From an uncultured Clostridia bacterium (GTDB lineage: Bacteria; Bacillota; Clostridia; Oscillospirales; Ruminococcaceae), in NCBI GenBank assembly GCA_945923775.1, contig CAMELR010000013.1, forward strand, positions 1-64,000: 64,000 nt of DNA, read 5' to 3'. The position numbers and the translations under genes were made by a program. How positions within the stretch are numbered: position 1 is the first letter of the stretch; each line of letters starts with the position of its first letter. Under the pieces are notes generated by a model. The model did not search any database and was not told where the DNA came from. It worked only from the letters and a program-made list of their open reading frames with translations. Positions 13,527 to 34,139 of this stretch are shown here, one piece after another.

Positions 13527-14624
13527 ATGAATGCAATCTACCAGCTGTTAAACCCGGATAATACGATATCCCTGAACCGTCCGCTGGCTCATGCGGTCGG
13601 ACTTATGGAAACCGTGGTTTACAGCGCACTCATAGCCAAATGGCAGTATTACAGCGACAGAGGAAAACTCGACCCGGACGGGTGGTTTTATTCCACCATC
13701 GCAGATTTAGAGGAAAGCACCTCCCTGTCAGACAAACAGCAGAAACGCTGCATTACGGTTCTGGAGAAGCGCGGACTTATCAAGTGCTCCCCGCGCGGAA
13801 TGCCAGCAAAACGCAGCTTCTACATAATCGACGATATAGTTCACCTAGCCGAAATTCTTGCGGAGGGTGAGGAAAAAATGAAATCCGTAAAGCCGTCAGC
13901 GACAGAAAAATACAAGCGGAATTCCACCGCGGACGAGGAAAACAGCACTTCTGAAAAGGAAGAAACACCCTCTCAGACCGCATTACTCCATTGTTCCGCC
14001 GAAAGGGCGAAGCAAGAAACGCCAAAAGGGCGGAACAAGGAACGCCCAAACGGCGAAGCAAGGAACGCCGAAACGGCGGAACAAGAAACGCCGAAACGGC
14101 AGAACATGATACGCCCAAATGGCGGACCATGTTACGCCCAAACGGCGGACAAATCTAAAGATAATAATCTTAAAGAAAATAATCCTGATATAATCAATCC
14201 TATCAATCAATCTGGTGGGACTGATGAGATGGAATATATCACCAGGATAAAAGAGGAGCGCTCCGCTTATGCCCAGATAGTCCGGGACAACACGGATTAC
14301 GAATACCTCATTGAGCAGAATCCAGGCAAGGCGGATACCATCAACGAGCTTATCAGCATTATGGTGGACGCAATCTGTTCCACCAGACCTACAATACGGG
14401 TGAACGGCGAGGACGTTCCGCATGACGTAGTGAAAAGTACGTTCCTGAAGCTTAACAGCAGTCACATCGAGTACGTTCTGGAAGCTATGGACAACAACAC
14501 CAGCGACGTCCGGAATATTCGAAGTTACCTGATAACGGCGCTGTACAATTCCCGGCTGACGCTTAACAGCTACTGGCAGTCCCGGGTAAATCACGACATG
14601 AAAGAATACTGGCAGGAGGGGTAA
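13527..14624 (+). CDS. replication initiator (RepA-like N-terminal domain with DUF6017-like C-terminus)
   Basis: FYSTIADLEESTSLSDKQQKRCITVLEKRGLIKCSPRGMPAKRSFYI winged-HTH; C-terminal YAQIVRDNTDYEYLIEQNP...IDEL-type region. Confidence 0.75.
   Translation: MNAIYQLLNPDNTISLNRPLAHAVGLMETVVYSALIAKWQYYSDRGKLDPDGWFYSTIADLEESTSLSDKQQKRCITVLEKRGLIKCSPRGMPAKRSFYIIDDIVHLAEILAEGEEKMKSVKPSATEKYKRNSTADEENSTSEKEETPSQTALLHCSAERAKQETPKGRNKERPNGEARNAETAEQETPKRQNMIRPNGGPCYAQTADKSKDNNLKENNPDIINPINQSGGTDEMEYITRIKEERSAYAQIVRDNTDYEYLIEQNPGKADTINELISIMVDAICSTRPTIRVNGEDVPHDVVKSTFLKLNSSHIEYVLEAMDNNTSDVRNIRSYLITALYNSRLTLNSYWQSRVNHDMKEYWQEG
13997..14138. repeat. 23-bp tandem repeat array within rep CDS
   Basis: CGCC at 13997, 14020, 14043, 14066, 14089, 14112, 14135 (exact 23-bp spacing), each full unit containing GGCG-N10-CGCC. 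Confidence 0.85.
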
Positions 14625-19192: not shown

Positions 19193-19327
19193 AGAGATTA
19201 ATTGCATATCTATTAGAAAGATAAATTCCCATTTATCGGGCAGATACACTAATTTGTAATCCACAATTAAATAACACCCATGGAGCAGTCGGAAGATTGC
19301 TCCATTTTTCATTATACGGAGGTACCC

Positions 19328-22300
19328 ATGAGCAGATTCGACGAAATCGCCCAGATATACGACCATCGGCTTCCCCAGCTCCGCAGTCCGGAGGTATGGG
19401 AGCAGACGCTCAGAATGACCTCCAGCTTCTGGAGGCTCAATTTCTGCGAGGCAATGCTTCTTACTCTCCAGAACCCGAAAGCGGAAATGTGCGGAACAAT
19501 CGACCAGTGGAACAATATCGGACGGTACATAAGGCGCGGCGAGCATTCCACAGCGGTATTCAGAAGCCGCACGGATACACAGCTCATGTACCTTTTCGAT
19601 GTGCGCCAGACCTACGGAAAGGCGTACAATTCCAAGTGGAAGCTCTCCGAGCGAATGGCTGACGGTATCGTCGGTAAATTCAATTCCGAGAACGCAGAAA
19701 ACGCTGTTTCTTTTGAAGATTATTTGCAGAAAAGCCTTGACAAAAATATAGATATAGTATATAATTATAACAGCAAATTAAATAATGCCATCTCGAATGA
19801 CCCCAGAACGGCGGCGTTCATTCGGGCAAGTGCAGAGTTTATTTGCATGACAAGGTGCGGCATTCCAGGCGACAGCGATTTCTCGGACGTAGCTAAGATA
19901 AATTCCGACCTTTCGATCGTCGAAATTGGAAACGCCGCAGCGGCTCTCGCACAGGCAGTACTGCGCGAGATAGACGGAATCATAAGGAGGAAAGAATATG
20001 AGCGTTATGAAGCTGGAATATGCAGAAGACATCTACGATATCCCATTCGAGGAAGATCAGAACGGACTGTTCCACCCGAAATTCACGAATTACGGCAGGG
20101 CGCAGATGACTCCGCTGGAGCGCAAAGCGGTGGACCTGATGAACGAAATCGACCCGACAGCGCTGGATATGGTGAACATCAGCGGGCTGTACCTCCGGAT
20201 ATGGAAAGAGATCGGGAAGAAAGCGGAGAAAGCCCGGAACAGCACGGCGCGCTCCATGCTGGCGAAAACCTCCCTCAGCCGGGATTACTCTCAGAGCGTG
20301 AGCCAGCGGACGGAGATAGACATGGCGGCGCAGGAAGCCGCGTGGGAATCCCTGAGGACGAGCGTAGCGTGGCTGGCGGCGGAAGTCCGGAGCCGGGCGA
20401 ATCTGTCGGAGATCCAGAAAATCTCGATGAGCCTGATGACGAAGAACTAGATGAAATGGTATCTGACGACGAATCAGATACCATTTCTGTTTTTACGGAT
20501 ATTCCGGAGGAAATAAGCCCGGACAGCGATTACGCGAAGAAGCTCCTTGAAGATGAAATTATCCGCGGAAGCGGCTTTTCTAACGGAAAATTCCGCATAA
20601 GCGAGTACATTTCCGAGAATTCCCCAAGCAAAGACGAGCTTGCAAAATTCCTGAAAAATGAATACGGAATCGGCGGCAGTTCCCGGAATGACGACCCGGT
20701 AAGCTTCAGCAACCACGACGGCAAAGGGATAGAGCTGGTTCTCAGCAATAAACAGGTCATTCGGTTTAACTGGAAGAAAGTTGCCGAAGCCGTCCGCAGT
20801 GCGGTAAACAGTGGGAAGTACATCACCGAATCCGACATAGAACTGCGCCGCCGAATGACGCTTTTTGACGCTCAGCGTTTCGCAATTCACTACGAATATC
20901 CGCACTGTCTGTACAATGACCGTCTGGATTATATTCGTAAAGAAATCGCCGCCTGCGATCTGGATCATCCGATCAGGCTGAACGCCGAAATGTTCGCTGT
21001 TTATGCGGCAGAATGCGTCCGCATGAAGCCACACGTCAAGGAATCATACCAGAAAATCGACCGCAGTTCGATAGATATTCCGTGGAAGTTCAACGACTGG
21101 AGCGAAGCCGCGGAAGCAGGTAATAATCTCCCTATCGATTCCGGATACGGTCAGTTCCGTGCAATGTGCCGGGATTCTGTTTCCGAGTTGATAAACGAGA
21201 TTTCCGCGCACACCGGGCACAATCCGGCGCTTGGATTTCCGGAGGAGGAGATCACAGAATTCTTCGCTTCCGGCGAACCGCTGACGTCCGATTCTGTTGA
21301 CAAAATCACCTCGGAGGTTTTCGGGTATTTATATAATCAGGAACAGCACAGCAGGCTGAATTCCAGCAAGTCAACCGAAATTGCCGCACCGGAACAGCCT
21401 GCCGAGCAGTTTACGCTTTTCGGCGATAATGAGTTCACGATGGAAGAACCGCCAGTGGACGAGCTTCCTGACGAATCTCTGAACCGCGCCGCCGCGTACA
21501 TCAAGGATTATTTCGAGCAGGAATTCGGCAGTGCGGCTGAAATCGAGGACCCGTCGCACGTTGACCTGGCATACACCACCGACGAGGAAAACAGCGCGGT
21601 AATCAGCGTTTACGCTGACCTTGTCCAGTACCGCATAACGACTGAATACGGCGGCAATATTGCCCGTGAGGAGCAGTATAATTCTCTGGACGAGATGAAC
21701 GAGCTTGCGCTCAAGTTCCTATCCTTTGATGATTTGATTTCTCTTTCTGATGAGGAAAAAGAGCTTGAGGTGCGACACGATGTCGCAGTCGAAGAAAATG
21801 AATCGGAAGTGCGACACAGTGTCGCAGTCGAAGCTGAGTTGCGCGGCGTCCATGCCGCGCTTGGGCTTCGACAGCAGCAACATCCTGTTGCAGCACCCGA
21901 AATTGAAACAACAGACCGCGCTCATATAACCCAGAAACCGCCGCCACCGGAAAACTACCGCTTCCCCGAAAATTTTGCATACCCCACCGGTCCGAAAGCA
22001 AAGTACTCTGCAAATGTAACAGCCATAAAAACGCTGAAACAAATCGAATCTGAACACCGCCATGCGACCGCCGAGGAGCAGGACATACTTGCTCGTTACA
22101 GCGGCTGGGGCGGCATTGCAGACGCATTCGACGGCACTAAAGAAAACTGGAGCCGAGAGTATGCCGAATTGAAAGACCTTCTCACGGACAAGGAATATTC
22201 CGCCGCCCGTGAAAGCACGCTCACCGCATTTTACACCGAGCCGTATATCATAAAGAGCATTTACACGGCGCTTGAAAACATGGGATTTACAGGCGGCGAG

Positions 22301-25300
22301 ATACTCGACCCGGCAATGGGAACGGGAAATTTCTTCGGGAATCTCCCGGCAGAAATGGCGGAGAACAGCCGTTTATACGGCGTTGAACTCGACAGCCTTA
22401 CCGCCCGTATCGCAAAGGAACTCTACCCGGAAGCGAAAATACAAAACCGTGGATTTGAGCGCACTAAGCTCGAAAACGGCACATTCGATGTGATTATCGG
22501 AAACGTGCCGTTCGGGGATTTCAAGCCCTATGACCCGGAATACGACGAATACCTTATCCACGATTATTTCTTCGCCAAGTCAATCGACAAGCTGAAGCCC
22601 GGTGGAATAATGGCGCTTATCACCTCCGCCGGAACTATGGACAAGTACGATGATTCATTCCGCCGTGAGCTGTCCGGAAAAGCGGATTTTCTCGGCGGTG
22701 TAAGGCTCCCGGAGGACGCATTCCGCACAGCCGGAACGCAGACAGTCACGGATATTCTTTTCTTTCAGAAACTCGAATTTGAGCATGAAAATGACCGAGA
22801 TCCGGATTGGGTGCGTTCCGAGCGAGTTTACGGAGAAGCAAGCGTATTTCAGGAAAATCGGTATTTCCGGCAGAACCCGGGAATGGTGCTTGGAACTCCG
22901 GAAATCGTTTCGGGGAGATACGGAAACACACGCACGATAAAGTCGGACGGCAATACCGCCGAACGGCTTTCCGAAGCCATCAGCAGACTTGACGGTCATT
23001 TCTCCGCCGAGCCGACCATAGATGATGAATTACCGAAAGAAGAATACGTAGATATCCCGGACGGCGTAACTCCGTACACATATTACGTCAGCGGAGGTTC
23101 GCTGTACTATGCAGAAAACCGCAGTGCAGTGCCGTTTACGGGCAGTTCCGAACCGCGAATAAAAGCCATGTGCGGCATACTCGACCGACTGAACGAAGTG
23201 ACCGCCGCGCAGAAGAAAGGGTGTTCAGATGATGAGCTGAAAATGCTCCAAAGCCGCCTGAATAACGCATACGACGGCTTTGTAAAGAAATACGGACACC
23301 TCAACAGCCGCACAAATATCAGCGCATTTGCAGACGATATCCGCGAACCGCGGCTGACCTCGATTGAAAATGTCGAGGAACTCCCGGACGGGAAACAGCG
23401 CTTTACCAAAGCGGACATCTTTACTCAGCGGACGATAAACGTTGACCGCGTTCCGGCGCACGTTGATACAGCACTTGAAGCGCTCCACCTCTCGATAAAC
23501 TTAAAGCAGACGGTAGACCTGGATTACATTTCTCAGCTCTGCGGAAAGGACAAGGACGCGGTAATTTCGGAGCTTGGCGAGCATATTTACTGCAATCCGG
23601 CGAAGAACACCGGCGGCAGATATTCCGGCTGGGAAACAGCAGAGGAATACCTCTCCGGACACGTCCGCACTAAGCTGGCTCTGGCTCAGGAAGCCGCCAA
23701 AACCGACCCGGATTATGAGCGCAACGTAGCCGCACTTCTGGACAATCAGCCGCCGAGAATAGGGATCGAAGATATCGGCTTCCGCATAGGAACTATCTAC
23801 ATCGAGCCGGAAATGTTCCAGGACTTCGTGTACGAAACGTTCCAGACGCCGGAATGGCAGAGGCACCGTCCGAATATGCGCGGCTATTCAAAGGAGATAA
23901 CCGTTAATTATTCGCCGGAGATGAACCAGTGGAAAGTGACCAATTCAAGCGGAATGTCGGATGTGCTTTCTACTGAAACCTACGGCACAAAACGGCTCAA
24001 CGCATACGAGCTGACGGAGCTTCTTCTGAACCAGAAACGCGCTGTTGTGAATGATTACCGGGAGCTTCCGGACGGCAGAACGGAAAGGGTGTTCAACGCA
24101 AAGGAAACCATTCTTGCGCGTGAATGCCAGGACAAAATCGAGCAGGCGTTCCACGACTGGGTAATGGCGGATAAAGACCGGATTCAAATCATTGAGGACC
24201 GCTTCAACGCGCTGTTCAACAACATCAAGCCGAGGACTTACAACGGCGATTATATCACGATTCCCGGCATGAATCCGAACCTTACCCTGCGTCCTCACCA
24301 GAAAAACGTTATCGCGCGAATTGCCGCCACCGGAACCTGCATGATGGCGCACGAAGTCGGCGCAGGAAAGACGGCGGCGATGGGCGCGGCAGGAATGTAC
24401 CTCAAGTCCATAGGAGCCTGCACCAAGCCGATGTATGTCGTGCCGAATGCAGTCGTGGCGCAGTTCGGCGAGGAATTACAGCGATTCTTCCCGGAAGCAA
24501 AAATACTTGTAGCCACGTCGAAAGACATGGAAAAATCACAGCGGCGGCGTTTCCTTTCAAAGATATCCGTCGGGAATTTCGACGCGATTGTCATTCCGCA
24601 GTCGCAGTTTGAAAAAATGCCGCTTTCGCTTGAACGTCAGGAGGCGATGTATGATGAGAAGCTGACCGAAATCTCCAGTGCGATACAGGCGGCGAAAGCC
24701 GACAAGGGCGAGCGTTTCACGGTCAAGGCTCTGGAGCGCCAGCGCAAGCAGATCGAGAAGAAAATTGAGAAAATGCGCGCGGCATTCAAGAAAGACGATT
24801 TCATCACATTCGAGGAACTCGGGTGTGATTTTCTTTTTGTGGACGAGGCGCACAATTACAAGAATCTCGCCGTTTTCTCCAAGATGAACAACGTAGCCGG
24901 CGTGAATGCAAATGCGAATTCTCAAAAGGCGTTCGATATGGAGATGAAATGCCGCTATTTGCAGGAGCTTCATAACGGCGGCGGTGTGGTTTTCGCCACG
25001 GGAACACCGATCAGCAACTCCATAACCGAACTGTTTGTGTGGCAGTACCTTTTGCAAAAGCAGACGCTGGACGATATGAATATCGGCTACTTTGATAATT
25101 GGGCTTCCGTTTTCGGCGTGATTACCCAGTCTATCGAGGTCAAGCCCAGCGGTGACGGATTCCGTCCGCGGACGAGATTTTCTAATTTCGTCAATCTGAA
25201 CGAGCTTTGCAATCTGTTCGGCGAGGTGTTCGATATCGCTAAAACTGCGGATATGAACCTCAAACTGCCGGCGATCCAGAACGGAAAACCGGAAATGATA

Positions 25301-26758
25301 ATCTGTGAAAAGTCCCCGGAGCAGGAACTTCAGACTGATGAGGGAATTGAGCGCGCACGAAAAATCGAAGCAAAAATGGTTCAGCCGGACGAGGATAATA
25401 TGCTCGCCGTCTGCACATACATGACCAAAGTCGCGCTGGACGCACGAATTATCGACCCGGAAGCCGAGGAATATGACGGCGGAAAGGTTGCCCTCTGTGC
25501 TGAAAAAATAATCGAGATAAACAAGGCAAATCCCGGCACGGCGCAGGCGGTTTTCTGCGACACGAATACGCCTAAAAAGGACGCATTCTCGGTATATCAG
25601 GCGCTCCGGGACAGGCTTGTGAGATCTGGCGAATTTACCGAAAATGAAATAGCTTTCGTGCATGACGCCGCCAACGACAAACAGCGCCTTGCCATGTTCG
25701 AAAAGGTCAACAATGCCGAAATAAAAATCATCATCGGCTCGACCGGAAAGCTTGGAACAGGTGTGAATATTCAGCGGAAGCTGTCTGCCCTGCACCATCT
25801 TGACGCACCCTATCGTCCCTCGGACATAGAACAGCGCAACGGCCGCGGAATACGCCAGGGCAACGAAAATTCCGAGGTCTACATCGGGTACTACTCCACA
25901 AAAGGCACATTTGACAATTATCGCTGGCAGATTCTTGAGAAGAAACAGCAGATAATCTCGCAGATAATGTCCGGAAAGCCAGCCGCGCGAACCTGCGAGG
26001 ATATTGACGACACCGCGCTGACGTTCGCCGAGATGAAAGCCGCAACGACTGGAAATCCCCTGATAGCCGAGAAAATGACGGTGGACAACGAGGTGAATCG
26101 TCTGAAATTATTGCAGGCGAATTATTATCAGCAGCAGCGCTCTTTTGAATACGATATCAGCAAGCGATATCCGGATTTGATTTCCCGAAAAGAAAAAATG
26201 ATCGAGTGGACGAAAAAGGATATCGAGCTGATTTCCGCAGCGCCGCCGATAACGGAGGATAACTTCCGCATGACGCTTGGCGGCAGGACTTATGTTGAGC
26301 GCTCCAAAGCCGGCGACGAGCTGGCGGCGCTGGTAACAAAATACATGATGTCCGATGATTATCAGGAGTACAAATCGAGGGCAGTCGGCGAGCTGAACGA
26401 TTTCAAAATCGTGCTGATGCACCAGGGCGCTCTGGTGTCGTTGTCGCTAAAGGCGAACGGACATTACACCTGCGATTACTCAATGAGCGGGCTTGGCGGC
26501 GTGACAAGGCTGTGTAATCTGTACGAGCGCATTCCGGAGCAGATCCACGGACTTAATGCTGAGCTGGAGCAGGCAAAAAAGCAGCTTTCAAACGCAAAGG
26601 AGCAGTACGGCAAGCCGTTCCAGTATGAGGAACAGCTCCGCGCCGGTCTGGAACGCCAGGCTCAGATAAACGCCGAACTGGAGGTTGCCGACAAACCGCA
26701 TGATGAAGCGGTCATGAGCGATTATTCCGACGACGAAAACGAAGAAATGGAGATGTGA
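19328..26758 (+). CDS. giant ICE protein: N-terminal ArdC-like region, N6 DNA methyltransferase-like domain, SNF2/DEAD helicase
   Basis: ILDPAMGTGNFFGNLP, IIGNVPFGDF; MMAHEVGAGKTAAMGAAG, FLFVDEAHNYKN, GTPISNSITELFVWQ, IDIEQRNGRGIRQGN-like motif VI. Confidence 0.9.
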   Translation: MSRFDEIAQIYDHRLPQLRSPEVWEQTLRMTSSFWRLNFCEAMLLTLQNPKAEMCGTIDQWNNIGRYIRRGEHSTAVFRSRTDTQLMYLFDVRQTYGKAYNSKWKLSERMADGIVGKFNSENAENAVSFEDYLQKSLDKNIDIVYNYNSKLNNAISNDPRTAAFIRASAEFICMTRCGIPGDSDFSDVAKINSDLSIVEIGNAAAALAQAVLREIDGIIRRKEYERYEAGICRRHLRYPIRGRSERTVPPEIHELRQGADDSAGAQSGGPDERNRPDSAGYGEHQRAVPPDMERDREESGESPEQHGALHAGENLPQPGLLSEREPADGDRHGGAGSRVGIPEDERSVAGGGSPEPGESVGDPENLDEPDDEELDEMVSDDESDTISVFTDIPEEISPDSDYAKKLLEDEIIRGSGFSNGKFRISEYISENSPSKDELAKFLKNEYGIGGSSRNDDPVSFSNHDGKGIELVLSNKQVIRFNWKKVAEAVRSAVNSGKYITESDIELRRRMTLFDAQRFAIHYEYPHCLYNDRLDYIRKEIAACDLDHPIRLNAEMFAVYAAECVRMKPHVKESYQKIDRSSIDIPWKFNDWSEAAEAGNNLPIDSGYGQFRAMCRDSVSELINEISAHTGHNPALGFPEEEITEFFASGEPLTSDSVDKITSEVFGYLYNQEQHSRLNSSKSTEIAAPEQPAEQFTLFGDNEFTMEEPPVDELPDESLNRAAAYIKDYFEQEFGSAAEIEDPSHVDLAYTTDEENSAVISVYADLVQYRITTEYGGNIAREEQYNSLDEMNELALKFLSFDDLISLSDEEKELEVRHDVAVEENESEVRHSVAVEAELRGVHAALGLRQQQHPVAAPEIETTDRAHITQKPPPPENYRFPENFAYPTGPKAKYSANVTAIKTLKQIESEHRHATAEEQDILARYSGWGGIADAFDGTKENWSREYAELKDLLTDKEYSAARESTLTAFYTEPYIIKSIYTALENMGFTGGEILDPAMGTGNFFGNLPAEMAENSRLYGVELDSLTARIAKELYPEAKIQNRGFERTKLENGTFDVIIGNVPFGDFKPYDPEYDEYLIHDYFFAKSIDKLKPGGIMALITSAGTMDKYDDSFRRELSGKADFLGGVRLPEDAFRTAGTQTVTDILFFQKLEFEHENDRDPDWVRSERVYGEASVFQENRYFRQNPGMVLGTPEIVSGRYGNTRTIKSDGNTAERLSEAISRLDGHFSAEPTIDDELPKEEYVDIPDGVTPYTYYVSGGSLYYAENRSAVPFTGSSEPRIKAMCGILDRLNEVTAAQKKGCSDDELKMLQSRLNNAYDGFVKKYGHLNSRTNISAFADDIREPRLTSIENVEELPDGKQRFTKADIFTQRTINVDRVPAHVDTALEALHLSINLKQTVDLDYISQLCGKDKDAVISELGEHIYCNPAKNTGGRYSGWETAEEYLSGHVRTKLALAQEAAKTDPDYERNVAALLDNQPPRIGIEDIGFRIGTIYIEPEMFQDFVYETFQTPEWQRHRPNMRGYSKEITVNYSPEMNQWKVTNSSGMSDVLSTETYGTKRLNAYELTELLLNQKRAVVNDYRELPDGRTERVFNAKETILARECQDKIEQAFHDWVMADKDRIQIIEDRFNALFNNIKPRTYNGDYITIPGMNPNLTLRPHQKNVIARIAATGTCMMAHEVGAGKTAAMGAAGMYLKSIGACTKPMYVVPNAVVAQFGEELQRFFPEAKILVATSKDMEKSQRRRFLSKISVGNFDAIVIPQSQFEKMPLSLERQEAMYDEKLTEISSAIQAAKADKGERFTVKALERQRKQIEKKIEKMRAAFKKDDFITFEELGCDFLFVDEAHNYKNLAVFSKMNNVAGVNANANSQKAFDMEMKCRYLQELHNGGGVVFATGTPISNSITELFVWQYLLQKQTLDDMNIGYFDNWASVFGVITQSIEVKPSGDGFRPRTRFSNFVNLNELCNLFGEVFDIAKTADMNLKLPAIQNGKPEMIICEKSPEQELQTDEGIERARKIEAKMVQPDEDNMLAVCTYMTKVALDARIIDPEAEEYDGGKVALCAEKIIEINKANPGTAQAVFCDTNTPKKDAFSVYQALRDRLVRSGEFTENEIAFVHDAANDKQRLAMFEKVNNAEIKIIIGSTGKLGTGVNIQRKLSALHHLDAPYRPSDIEQRNGRGIRQGNENSEVYIGYYSTKGTFDNYRWQILEKKQQIISQIMSGKPAARTCEDIDDTALTFAEMKAATTGNPLIAEKMTVDNEVNRLKLLQANYYQQQRSFEYDISKRYPDLISRKEKMIEWTKKDIELISAAPPITEDNFRMTLGGRTYVERSKAGDELAALVTKYMMSDDYQEYKSRAVGELNDFKIVLMHQGALVSLSLKANGHYTCDYSMSGLGGVTRLCNLYERIPEQIHGLNAELEQAKKQLSNAKEQYGKPFQYEEQLRAGLERQAQINAELEVADKPHDEAVMSDYSDDENEEMEM
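19998..20450 (+). CDS. overlapping alternative-frame small protein (TnpV-like position; identity uncertain)
   Basis: SD AAGGAGG before ATG 19998; 150-aa ordered-looking sequence in +1 frame while the giant ORF frame is low complexity. Confidence 0.5.
   Translation: MSVMKLEYAEDIYDIPFEEDQNGLFHPKFTNYGRAQMTPLERKAVDLMNEIDPTALDMVNISGLYLRIWKEIGKKAEKARNSTARSMLAKTSLSRDYSQSVSQRTEIDMAAQEAAWESLRTSVAWLAAEVRSRANLSEIQKISMSLMTKN
21770..21788. repeat. palindrome family member
   Basis: GTGCGACACGATGTCGCA. Confidence 0.8.
21809..21896. repeat. 88-bp palindromic element, copy 1 (inside giant ORF)
   Basis: GTGCGACAC..TGTCGCAGTCGAAGCTGAGTTGCGCGGCGTCCATGCCGCGCTTGGGCTTCGACAGCAGCAACATCCTGTTGCAGCAC; inverted copy at 30944-31031. 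Confidence 0.85.
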
Positions 26759-27183: not shown

Positions 27184-27784
27184 CAACGATGAGTATTTCG
27201 AGGCGTATTTAAATTACCTGAAGAATACCGGAGGCTATCAGTTTATTCGTTTTGTAAACGTCAGCGGGTCACAGTATATTGCTTTCACCCAGCGCGGTTT
27301 TGACAATATCAAGTCTTTTCTGATGCAGAAGCTCCAGACAAAGCGTGAGGAAGCTGACCGCCTGGAAGCAGAAATCAACGAAGCATTCAGCGCTGCGGAG
27401 CCGACTGAAATTCCTAAAGATGAAAAATCCGAACTTTCAGACCTTATAGAGAAACTCGGTTTACAAAGTCACTCATACTCTTTCAGCGTTGTTTCTCTGG
27501 ACTCGGAGATTTACGTTACCGGAGCGTATGTAGAGAGCGCTGACGAGCTTGATGAGCTTGGAATCCTCGGTCAGTTTGACAGGGATTTCGGACATGGCGA
27601 TACCGTTCATGCTGAGATAAGTTATTATATCATCGGGCAGTCCGGCGTGGAATCCGAAAGGCTCCCGGATGAATTTGGGTGCGACATCGTGTCGCACCTG
27701 GACGCGGCGGTTCAGTACGCCGACCTGCTGGAAGAACGGCCGCTAACGATTGATTTCGGTGATTATGAGATGGCGTTTGAGTGA
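27068..27784 (+). CDS. hypothetical ICE protein (possibly 3' part of frameshifted gene)
   Basis: YSNDEYFEAYLNYLKNTGGYQFIRFVNVSGSQYIAFTQRGF; no convincing start codon/SD. Confidence 0.5.
   Translation: MVPAFRRLFLTANMMSIMICPGYLETAILKSRTAVLLYSNDEYFEAYLNYLKNTGGYQFIRFVNVSGSQYIAFTQRGFDNIKSFLMQKLQTKREEADRLEAEINEAFSAAEPTEIPKDEKSELSDLIEKLGLQSHSYSFSVVSLDSEIYVTGAYVESADELDELGILGQFDRDFGHGDTVHAEISYYIIGQSGVESERLPDEFGCDIVSHLDAAVQYADLLEERPLTIDFGDYEMAFE
27678..27699. repeat. palindrome family member (inside CDS)
   Basis: GGTGCGACATCGTGTCGCACC. Confidence 0.85.
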
Positions 27785-27785
27785 T

Positions 27786-27815
27786 AGGTGCGACACGGTG
27801 TCGCACCTTTTTTTT
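27786..27815 (+). terminator. palindrome family member followed by T-run
   Basis: AGGTGCGACACGGTGTCGCACCTTTTTTTT. Confidence 0.75.
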
Positions 27816-28572: not shown

Positions 28573-28595
28573 AGGTGCGACACCGTGCCGCACCT
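28573..28595. repeat. palindrome family member
   Basis: AGGTGCGACACCGTGCCGCACCT. Confidence 0.85.
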
Positions 28596-29903: not shown

Positions 29904-30944
29904 ATGCCGCAGTATAAATACTCCCGTGACGACTACTACCGTCTGACTAACGCTCCCTGCCTGGACGTTGCCAGGGCTCTTGGAATGGAGATAAACGAAA
30001 AGGAAAGCGACCGCAAAAGCTGGAAGATAAAAGGCGAACAGGGGCTGTGCATTTACCGCGAGGGAAACGGCTGGTACCGCTTTTCGGACGGGCGGCATGG
30101 ATTTCCTATCGACCTCGTAAAAGACAAGCTCTGCTGTTCTACGGAACAGGCGCTTGATTTCATCGCCCGTTATGTCGTGAACGGAGTTTCCGGGCAGGTG
30201 AATATTCCTCGCCGGACTGCCCTGTCAGAGCCGGAAAAACCGCGTGAATTCTCACCGCCGGCACACGACATTTCACCCAGGCGCGTCATGGCATATCTCA
30301 TAAAGACAAGAGGAATCGACCCGGAAATCGTGAAAGCAATGATTCAGCAAAAGATGATAGCAGAGGACTCAGTTCATCATAACTGCCTGTTTTTCGGACG
30401 TGACGAAAACGGAGTGATACGCTCCTGCGCGGTTCGAGGCTCAACGGAAGTGAAATTCCGCGGTGAAGCTCCCGGCGGAGACAAGTCCTGCACATTCGCA
30501 ATGGCGGGCAGGAGCGATGTGCTCCGGCTGTTTGAAAGTCCCATTGACGCAATGTCGCACGCCACTTTTACAAAGCTCCTCGGAAAAGACTGGACAGCCG
30601 ACCATCGGCTAAGCGTGAACGGCAGTGGGAACTACGAGAGCATAAAAAGATACCTCGCGAACCACACGGAAATAAAATCCGTGTGGTTTTGCTATGACAG
30701 TGACCAAGCCGGACGCGACGGTGCGGAAGCCTCCAGCAGTAGGATTTTCGAGGATTTCCCGGACAGAGAATTATCGGTGATGTTCTGCTCTCCTGTCAAA
30801 AATAAGGACTGGAACGAAGCGCTCCAGCTTTTCCGGGTTTTGGAGAGCCACGGCGTCACGGTTCGTGAATTTCTTGCTCCCACGGAATTCCGGAGCATTC
30901 CGCCCCCGGACTGCGATGAGAACGAATTTGATTTTGAGCCGTAG
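29904..30944 (+). CDS. Toprim-domain primase-like protein (DUF3991/Toprim)
   Basis: SWKIKGEQGLCIYREGNGWYRFSDGRHGFPIDLV; Toprim VLRLFESPIDAMS and IKSVWFCYDSDQAGRDGA. Confidence 0.8.
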   Translation: MPQYKYSRDDYYRLTNAPCLDVARALGMEINEKESDRKSWKIKGEQGLCIYREGNGWYRFSDGRHGFPIDLVKDKLCCSTEQALDFIARYVVNGVSGQVNIPRRTALSEPEKPREFSPPAHDISPRRVMAYLIKTRGIDPEIVKAMIQQKMIAEDSVHHNCLFFGRDENGVIRSCAVRGSTEVKFRGEAPGGDKSCTFAMAGRSDVLRLFESPIDAMSHATFTKLLGKDWTADHRLSVNGSGNYESIKRYLANHTEIKSVWFCYDSDQAGRDGAEASSSRIFEDFPDRELSVMFCSPVKNKDWNEALQLFRVLESHGVTVREFLAPTEFRSIPPPDCDENEFDFEP

Positions 30945-31031
30945 TGCGACAACAGGACGTTGTTGCTGTCGAAGCCCAAACGAGGCATGGACGCCGCGCA
31001 GCTCAGCTTCAACTGCGACATCGTGTCGCAC
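30944..31031. repeat. 88-bp palindromic element, copy 2 (inverted relative to copy 1)
   Basis: Reverse complement aligns to 21809-21896 with about 10 mismatches by hand. Confidence 0.85.
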
Positions 31032-31669: not shown

Positions 31670-31690
31670 GTGCCGCACGGTGCGGCACCT
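31668..31690. repeat. palindrome family member
   Basis: AGGTGCCGCACGGTGCGGCACCT. Confidence 0.85.
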
Positions 31691-33346: not shown

Positions 33347-33368
33347 AGTGCGGCACGGTGTCGCACCT
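33347..33368. repeat. palindrome family member
   Basis: AGTGCGGCACGGTGTCGCACCT. Confidence 0.8.
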
Positions 33369-34114: not shown

Positions 34115-34139
34115 CAGGTGCGACACAATGTCGCACCTG
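34115..34139. repeat. palindrome family member
   Basis: CAGGTGCGACACAATGTCGCACCTG. Confidence 0.9.

Follow-up and report, generated by a model that had tools for sequence, protein, structure and literature searches.

The 64,000-nucleotide stretch of Clostridia DNA analysed here (the window) contains an 88-bp palindromic segment that lies in frame within the ORF of a giant helicase, at 21809-21896. This raised the question of whether a mobile palindromic repeat had entered the gene, as in the Rickettsia palindromic elements (RPEs), or whether the segment simply belongs to the protein.

A composite segment in a helicase gene

The sequence, coordinates and in-frame position of the segment given in the initial annotation were correct, and its estimate of about 10 mismatches to an inverted copy at 30944-31031 agrees with our direct count (78 of 88 positions identical). 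Of all inverted repeats in the window, this pair is both the longest (88 nt) and the best, with 89% complementarity. The nested hairpins that had been described were also borne out: the single-strand fold of the 88 nt reaches -49.6 kcal/mol (z = -4.9 against dinucleotide shuffles), and its helices covary across the family described below. Two points required revision. The second copy had been read as coding on the minus strand, but it is intergenic and begins at the stop codon of an ORF ending at 30944. Moreover, the segment is a palindromic repeat but not a single element; it is a composite of a 65-bp family core and an adjoining palindrome, TGCGACA-NNN-TGTCGCA (GTGCGACAC) (Table 1). BLAST returned partial matches elsewhere, with outer stems that differ from those of the window core.

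Table 1. Coordinates of the helicase gene, the two cores and the adjoining palindromes in the window
Feature	Position	Strand	Evidence or detail
Host gene, 2492-aa methylase/SNF2-like helicase ORF of the conjugative element	19280..26758	+	
ICE-type palindrome, peptide VRHDVA, upstream in the same helicase linker	21770..21787	+	direct repeat
ICE-type palindrome GTGCGACACAGTGTCGCA adjoining the core, peptide VRHSVA	21809..21826	+	
Covariance-model match, core in helicase	21823-21894	-	88.2 bits (R1), 79.6 bits (R2)
65-bp family core, two hairpins, in frame in the helicase ORF	21827..21891	-	covariance model
Nested hairpin of the core: outer stem GTCGAAGC/GCTTCGAC, internal loop, inner stem GCGCGGC/GCCGCGC, loop ATGGAC	21827..21872	-	helices 2 and 3; fold
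Small hairpin of the core, GCAAC-AGGAT-GTTGC	21877..21891	-	covarying stem, helix 1
Covariance-model match, second core	30946-31017	+	R1 and R2
Second 65-bp core, intergenic, directly 3' of the stop codon at 30944	30949..31013	+	
ICE-type palindrome TGCGACATCGTGTCGCA at the end of the second composite	31014..31030	+	

The host ORF matched Eco57I and Helicase_C above the cut-off and SNF2-rel just below it, and the conjugative element around it also encodes a MobL relaxase, a coupling protein and a T2SSE-type ATPase. TGCGACA-NNN-TGTCGCA recurs, also by itself, along this element and along a second one on contig C17; outside these two conjugative elements the window's own genome contains no exact match to it. 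The palindrome is present in 8 of the 43 genomes of the genus.

Between successive genes of the two elements we observed the form (A)GGTGCGACACNNTGTCGCACC(T), often directly after stop codons (27679-27697, 27788-27806, 28575-28593, 31670-31688, 33348-33366 and 34118-34136, and also on contig C17). Some of its copies are compensatory variants (GTGCCGCAC/GTGCGGCAC). The copy at 27788 is followed by a T-run and appears terminator-like, and the copy at 27679 lies inside an ORF. Elsewhere in the window, a 23-bp tandem repeat array (CGCCGAAACGGCGGAACAAGAAA) occupies 13997-14157 inside ORF 13527-14624 (DUF6017).

A dispersed family with a covarying fold

To describe the core we built a covariance model from seven copies, which took over from an initial pattern (CGGCRTGGACGCCG). 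Further genomic copies were found with this model in abundance: the family occurs in 37 of 43 species genomes of one Oscillospiraceae genus, at 0 to 44 copies per genome (44 in G003, 30 in G016, 20 in G028, 16 in G014 and 5 in the window's own genome). Among 379 sampled genomes of the family Oscillospiraceae, strong matches were confined to two genera, this one and g16; three weak single matches near E = 0.001 were left out of the count. The named records with the exact core motif are Oscillospiraceae, Ruminiclostridium and uncultured Clostridia MAGs, and one IMG/VR contig also contains it. A 136-bp stretch had no BLASTN match among plasmids and phages, searches against Rfam under strict and permissive settings returned nothing relevant, and neither did a search of open-licence papers for such elements in Ruminococcaceae or Oscillospiraceae. 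We conclude that the core represents a genuine dispersed family, undescribed as far as we could search, that behaves like RPEs. Its placement in a family of integrative conjugative elements did not hold, as the core is chromosomal, genus-wide and not specific to conjugative elements. In one ORF of G022 (contig C250, L045/L056) three core units stand in tandem with a period of about 66 bp.

The core is 63-67 bp long and consists of a small hairpin (5-bp stem, loop mostly A[C/G]GA[T/C]), a spacer of 2-4 nt and a nested hairpin. The latter has an 8-bp outer stem almost free in sequence, an internal loop whose one side is mostly CAAA and whose other side comprises six A-rich bases, a 7-bp inner stem, and a loop ANGGAY that contains GGA in 86 of 88 copies. 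Across these 88 copies the loop nucleotides are fixed while the stems covary: double changes occupy 486 cells where shuffles give 134, and 97.9% of cells are paired, compared with 26-54% in slid controls. A set of 64 copies gave 310 against 88. The alignments were fitted to the core structure, so that the covariation counts lean towards it. Most of the weight is carried by the outer stem, where four Watson-Crick types occur at most positions.

In-frame copies in unrelated genes

The clearest insertion is in purD of G001 (L125), where a 66-bp insert adds 22 residues (DTMSQSQCQKGGTDAAQSSIGG). Of 40 other genomes of the genus with a match, 39 have orthologues that span the site without the insert; the remaining PurD, from G020, is truncated before the site. 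A nucleotide alignment of 29 of these genomes gave a clean 66-bp difference, making purD the one gene with an empty site at the nucleotide level, and against the solved PurD chain that matched best the insert falls opposite a gap of 22 residues. In purD, the change from GGC to CGGCG could be a target-site duplication.

Homology predicts further in-frame copies in MetK, a RumA-like methyltransferase, ApbE, VirB4 and MobL. The MetK insert of G028 adjoins the GAGDQG motif and corresponds to a gap in a solved chain, that of the RumA-like methyltransferase is an unaligned stretch between two blocks aligned to a solved structure, and those of VirB4 and MobL are absent from the window's own homologues. 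Copies in ApbE, an ABC transporter, RecG, an M20 peptidase, a C5 DNA methylase and a phage capsid protein were called from ORF and Pfam evidence only. Overall the core is read in all six frames, three sense and three antisense, and the mean number of stop-free frames per copy is 4.25 out of 6, compared with 3.40 for shuffled copies.

We dropped two candidates, SecA (L184) and pyrimidine phosphorylase (L208); the copy precedes the domain start in the former and lies upstream of the domain in the latter, and both look like false ORF extensions. A SAM riboswitch match from Rfam at L040 is consistent with a metK gene there.

Mobility and the size of the mobile unit

In G016, nine near-identical copies have different right flanks, which indicates recent multiplication. 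The window segment probably includes one member of a family of non-autonomous mobile DNA hairpins, each about 65 bp long, scattered through one Oscillospiraceae genus. No target-site duplication was consistent across copies, and by eye the ORFs between close copies (L121, L123) share no gene. We found no candidate transposase, and we count this against our preferred explanation.

The mobile unit may exceed 65 bp in G003 and G016, because there the core is nested in larger palindromic repeats, in either orientation in G003. Could the core then be a mere module of composite repeats that are the true mobile units? The long common flanks with further hairpins in these two genomes speak for this, but the purD insert is the core alone (66 bp) and the core takes either orientation within the larger repeats, and we regard this explanation as unlikely, if still the strongest competitor. 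The larger repeats themselves (L086-L105 in G003, L261-L270 in G016) are intergenic and palindromic, about 200-250 bp long, with the core as a module and with arms GTGCAAATTGCGA/TCGCAATTTGC or an end CTTTGTGCGGTGTTGCC.

A second possibility is that the core is a REP-type element whose movement depends on a tyrosine transposase of the RAYT/Y1 (IS200/IS605-like) kind, an enzyme that cuts single-stranded DNA in its folded form. Such enzymes use single-strand hairpins recognised by structure, and REPs may also lie within genes (PMC3733652). Against this, Pfam Y1_Tnp was detected in only 9 of 43 genomes, and in none of the highest-copy ones (G003, G016, G028, G014) nor in the window's own, and GTAG stands near the edge in only 7 of 88 copies. 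We therefore consider this origin improbable.

DNA or RNA

If pairing were under selection in RNA, G-U should be better tolerated than A-C, and this was not so: compared within the core family alone, G-T accounted for 17 and A-C for 21 of 1725 stem cells. Intergenic copies between co-directional genes were likewise without strand bias (13 sense, 17 antisense). From these two results the constraint looks to be at the level of DNA. They suggest either a constraint on the DNA that is the same for both strands or copies that arrived as perfect palindromes and have since decayed neutrally, and the stem covariation could also come from hairpin-templated correction, with no need for an enzyme that recognises the fold.

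The same results argue against a cis-acting RNA, of which the specific form would be GGA-loop hairpins that bind CsrA and are spread or kept for post-transcriptional control. We chose the GGA loop as the reason to test CsrA before the outcome was known. The C-G closed hexaloop ANGGAN of the core fits the CsrA/RsmE consensus (CANGGANG), and CsrA is encoded in 38 of 43 genomes of the genus. In the 27 that are at least 90% complete, csrA and the element coincide perfectly, with 23 genomes having both and 4 neither (Fisher 6e-5 if the genomes are taken as independent), but all four that lack both fall in one 9-row subclade of the PurD tree. G030, without either, stands beside its sister G037, which has both, a single case suggesting a second event. 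In the family sample every genome with a strong core match has CsrA; yet CsrA occurs in 53 of 126 sampled genera and strong element matches in two. About half of the small-hairpin loops, furthermore, are CGA and not GGA. The coincidence may be phylogenetic and we treat it as a lead; a CsrA-binding RNA as the explanation of the family seems to us very improbable, somewhat more so than a Y1-driven origin.

A variable linker in the helicase

Comparison of helicase orthologues with and without the insertion, as the initial annotation had proposed, found that most are without it. With the further genomic copies described above, neither of the two outcomes that the annotation had named as refuting its reading was observed. 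The only orthologue with the same core is on contig C63 of G022, where its peptide is nearly unchanged. Helicases that are more distant contain neither the palindrome nor the core; on contig C17, the paralogue lacks the core and has a different stretch at the linker site. Between its two VRH palindromes the G022 protein has more than 100 residues for which the window has no counterpart. Judged by these alignments, the linker that holds the core is a variable site, and it looks as if segments had been swapped or deleted between VRHxVA palindromes. Since a copy of the palindrome is already present at 21770-21787, the inserted stretch may start there.

The VRHxVA palindrome brackets the linker in the window (21770-21896), in G022:C63 (L155) and in G000:C17 (L177), and the linker is wholly different among these close relatives. 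The G015 helicase was rejected as an empty site, as it has a larger deletion.

That the segment is a conserved helicase domain with an incidental palindrome, as the open ORF and the G022 peptide might suggest, is refuted by copies in both orientations, in all six frames and often intergenic, by stems that change through compensatory pairs, and by other helicases without the core.

How the core may move and why it matters

Returning to the preferred explanation, a mobile DNA hairpin, we propose that an enzyme acting in trans would make new copies by recognising a single strand in its folded state by the nucleotides left unpaired, presumably the loop ANGGAY, the loop NGA and the internal loop CAAA / AANNAA. 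Recognition of this kind would leave the stems free to vary as long as they remain paired. Insertions in genes would survive where length and frame fit and the approximately 22 residues extend a linker or a loop of the protein. In the window, the core would have joined the GTGCGACAC palindrome of the conjugative element within the variable helicase linker. We make no claim that the core benefits its host. A bolder proposal, which we hold only tentatively and think rather unlikely in full, is a class of mobile DNA hairpins for which fold and loop nucleotides are the only recognition signals; a non-Y1 enzyme would move them, core enzymes of gut Clostridia would receive ready-made in-frame peptides from them, and their persistence would perhaps depend on CsrA.

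Coding palindromes have so far been known mainly from Rickettsia and Wolbachia; here they occur in gut Clostridia, which are not obligate intracellular bacteria. The core adds about 22 aa to enzymes of purine and methionine metabolism with the reading frame unbroken, which shows how central enzymes like PurD and MetK can acquire new surface segments. With 88 aligned copies, recent bursts in G016 and a clear empty site, the way in which gene-invading palindromes move becomes testable. Covarying stems around fixed loops hint at what is recognised by the mobilising machinery, and with copy numbers from 0 to 44 over the 43 genomes that machinery can be sought by presence and absence.

Comparison with known systems

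A high rate of in-frame palindromes has been described in a review as a speciality of Rickettsia (PMC10969869; see also PMC3767692). Like the core, RPEs and the Wolbachia palindromic elements are small palindromes of one lineage, found between genes and in frame within conserved genes, where they encode extra loop peptides. The core differs from RPEs in having two hairpins, in stems that covary around fixed loops and in its use of all frames.

REP/RAYT systems, with GTAG- and CGTC-tagged palindromes, resemble the core in being short dispersed hairpins with conserved unpaired bases that sometimes lie in genes (PMC3733652). A REP, however, is a single hairpin of 20-40 bp, whereas the core has two hairpins in 65 bp, no GTAG tag, and no Y1 transposase in its high-copy genomes. 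Bacterial MITEs such as ERIC, BOX and RUP are likewise small and non-autonomous, and their open frames can become fused to genes (PMC10969869). They normally carry constant terminal inverted repeats and duplicate their target site, in contrast to the core, whose stems vary between copies and for which no steady duplication was seen. In the coding palindromes of Nematomorpha mitochondria (PMC6649704) inverted repeats are also retained in translated genes; there, each of the two arms codes for a conserved portion of the protein that the gene itself specifies, whereas the core is a foreign repeat that was inserted.

The description of the window segment as RPE-like stands for its behaviour, that of a dispersed palindrome inserted in frame in conserved genes, but not for its size or host: RPEs measure 100-150 bp (PMC3767692, PMC10969869) against 63-67 bp for the core and 88 bp for the window composite, and they belong to Rickettsiales in the Alphaproteobacteria, the core to Oscillospiraceae and Clostridia MAGs. 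By this comparison the term "RPE-like" holds as a description of how the core behaves and not as proven kinship.
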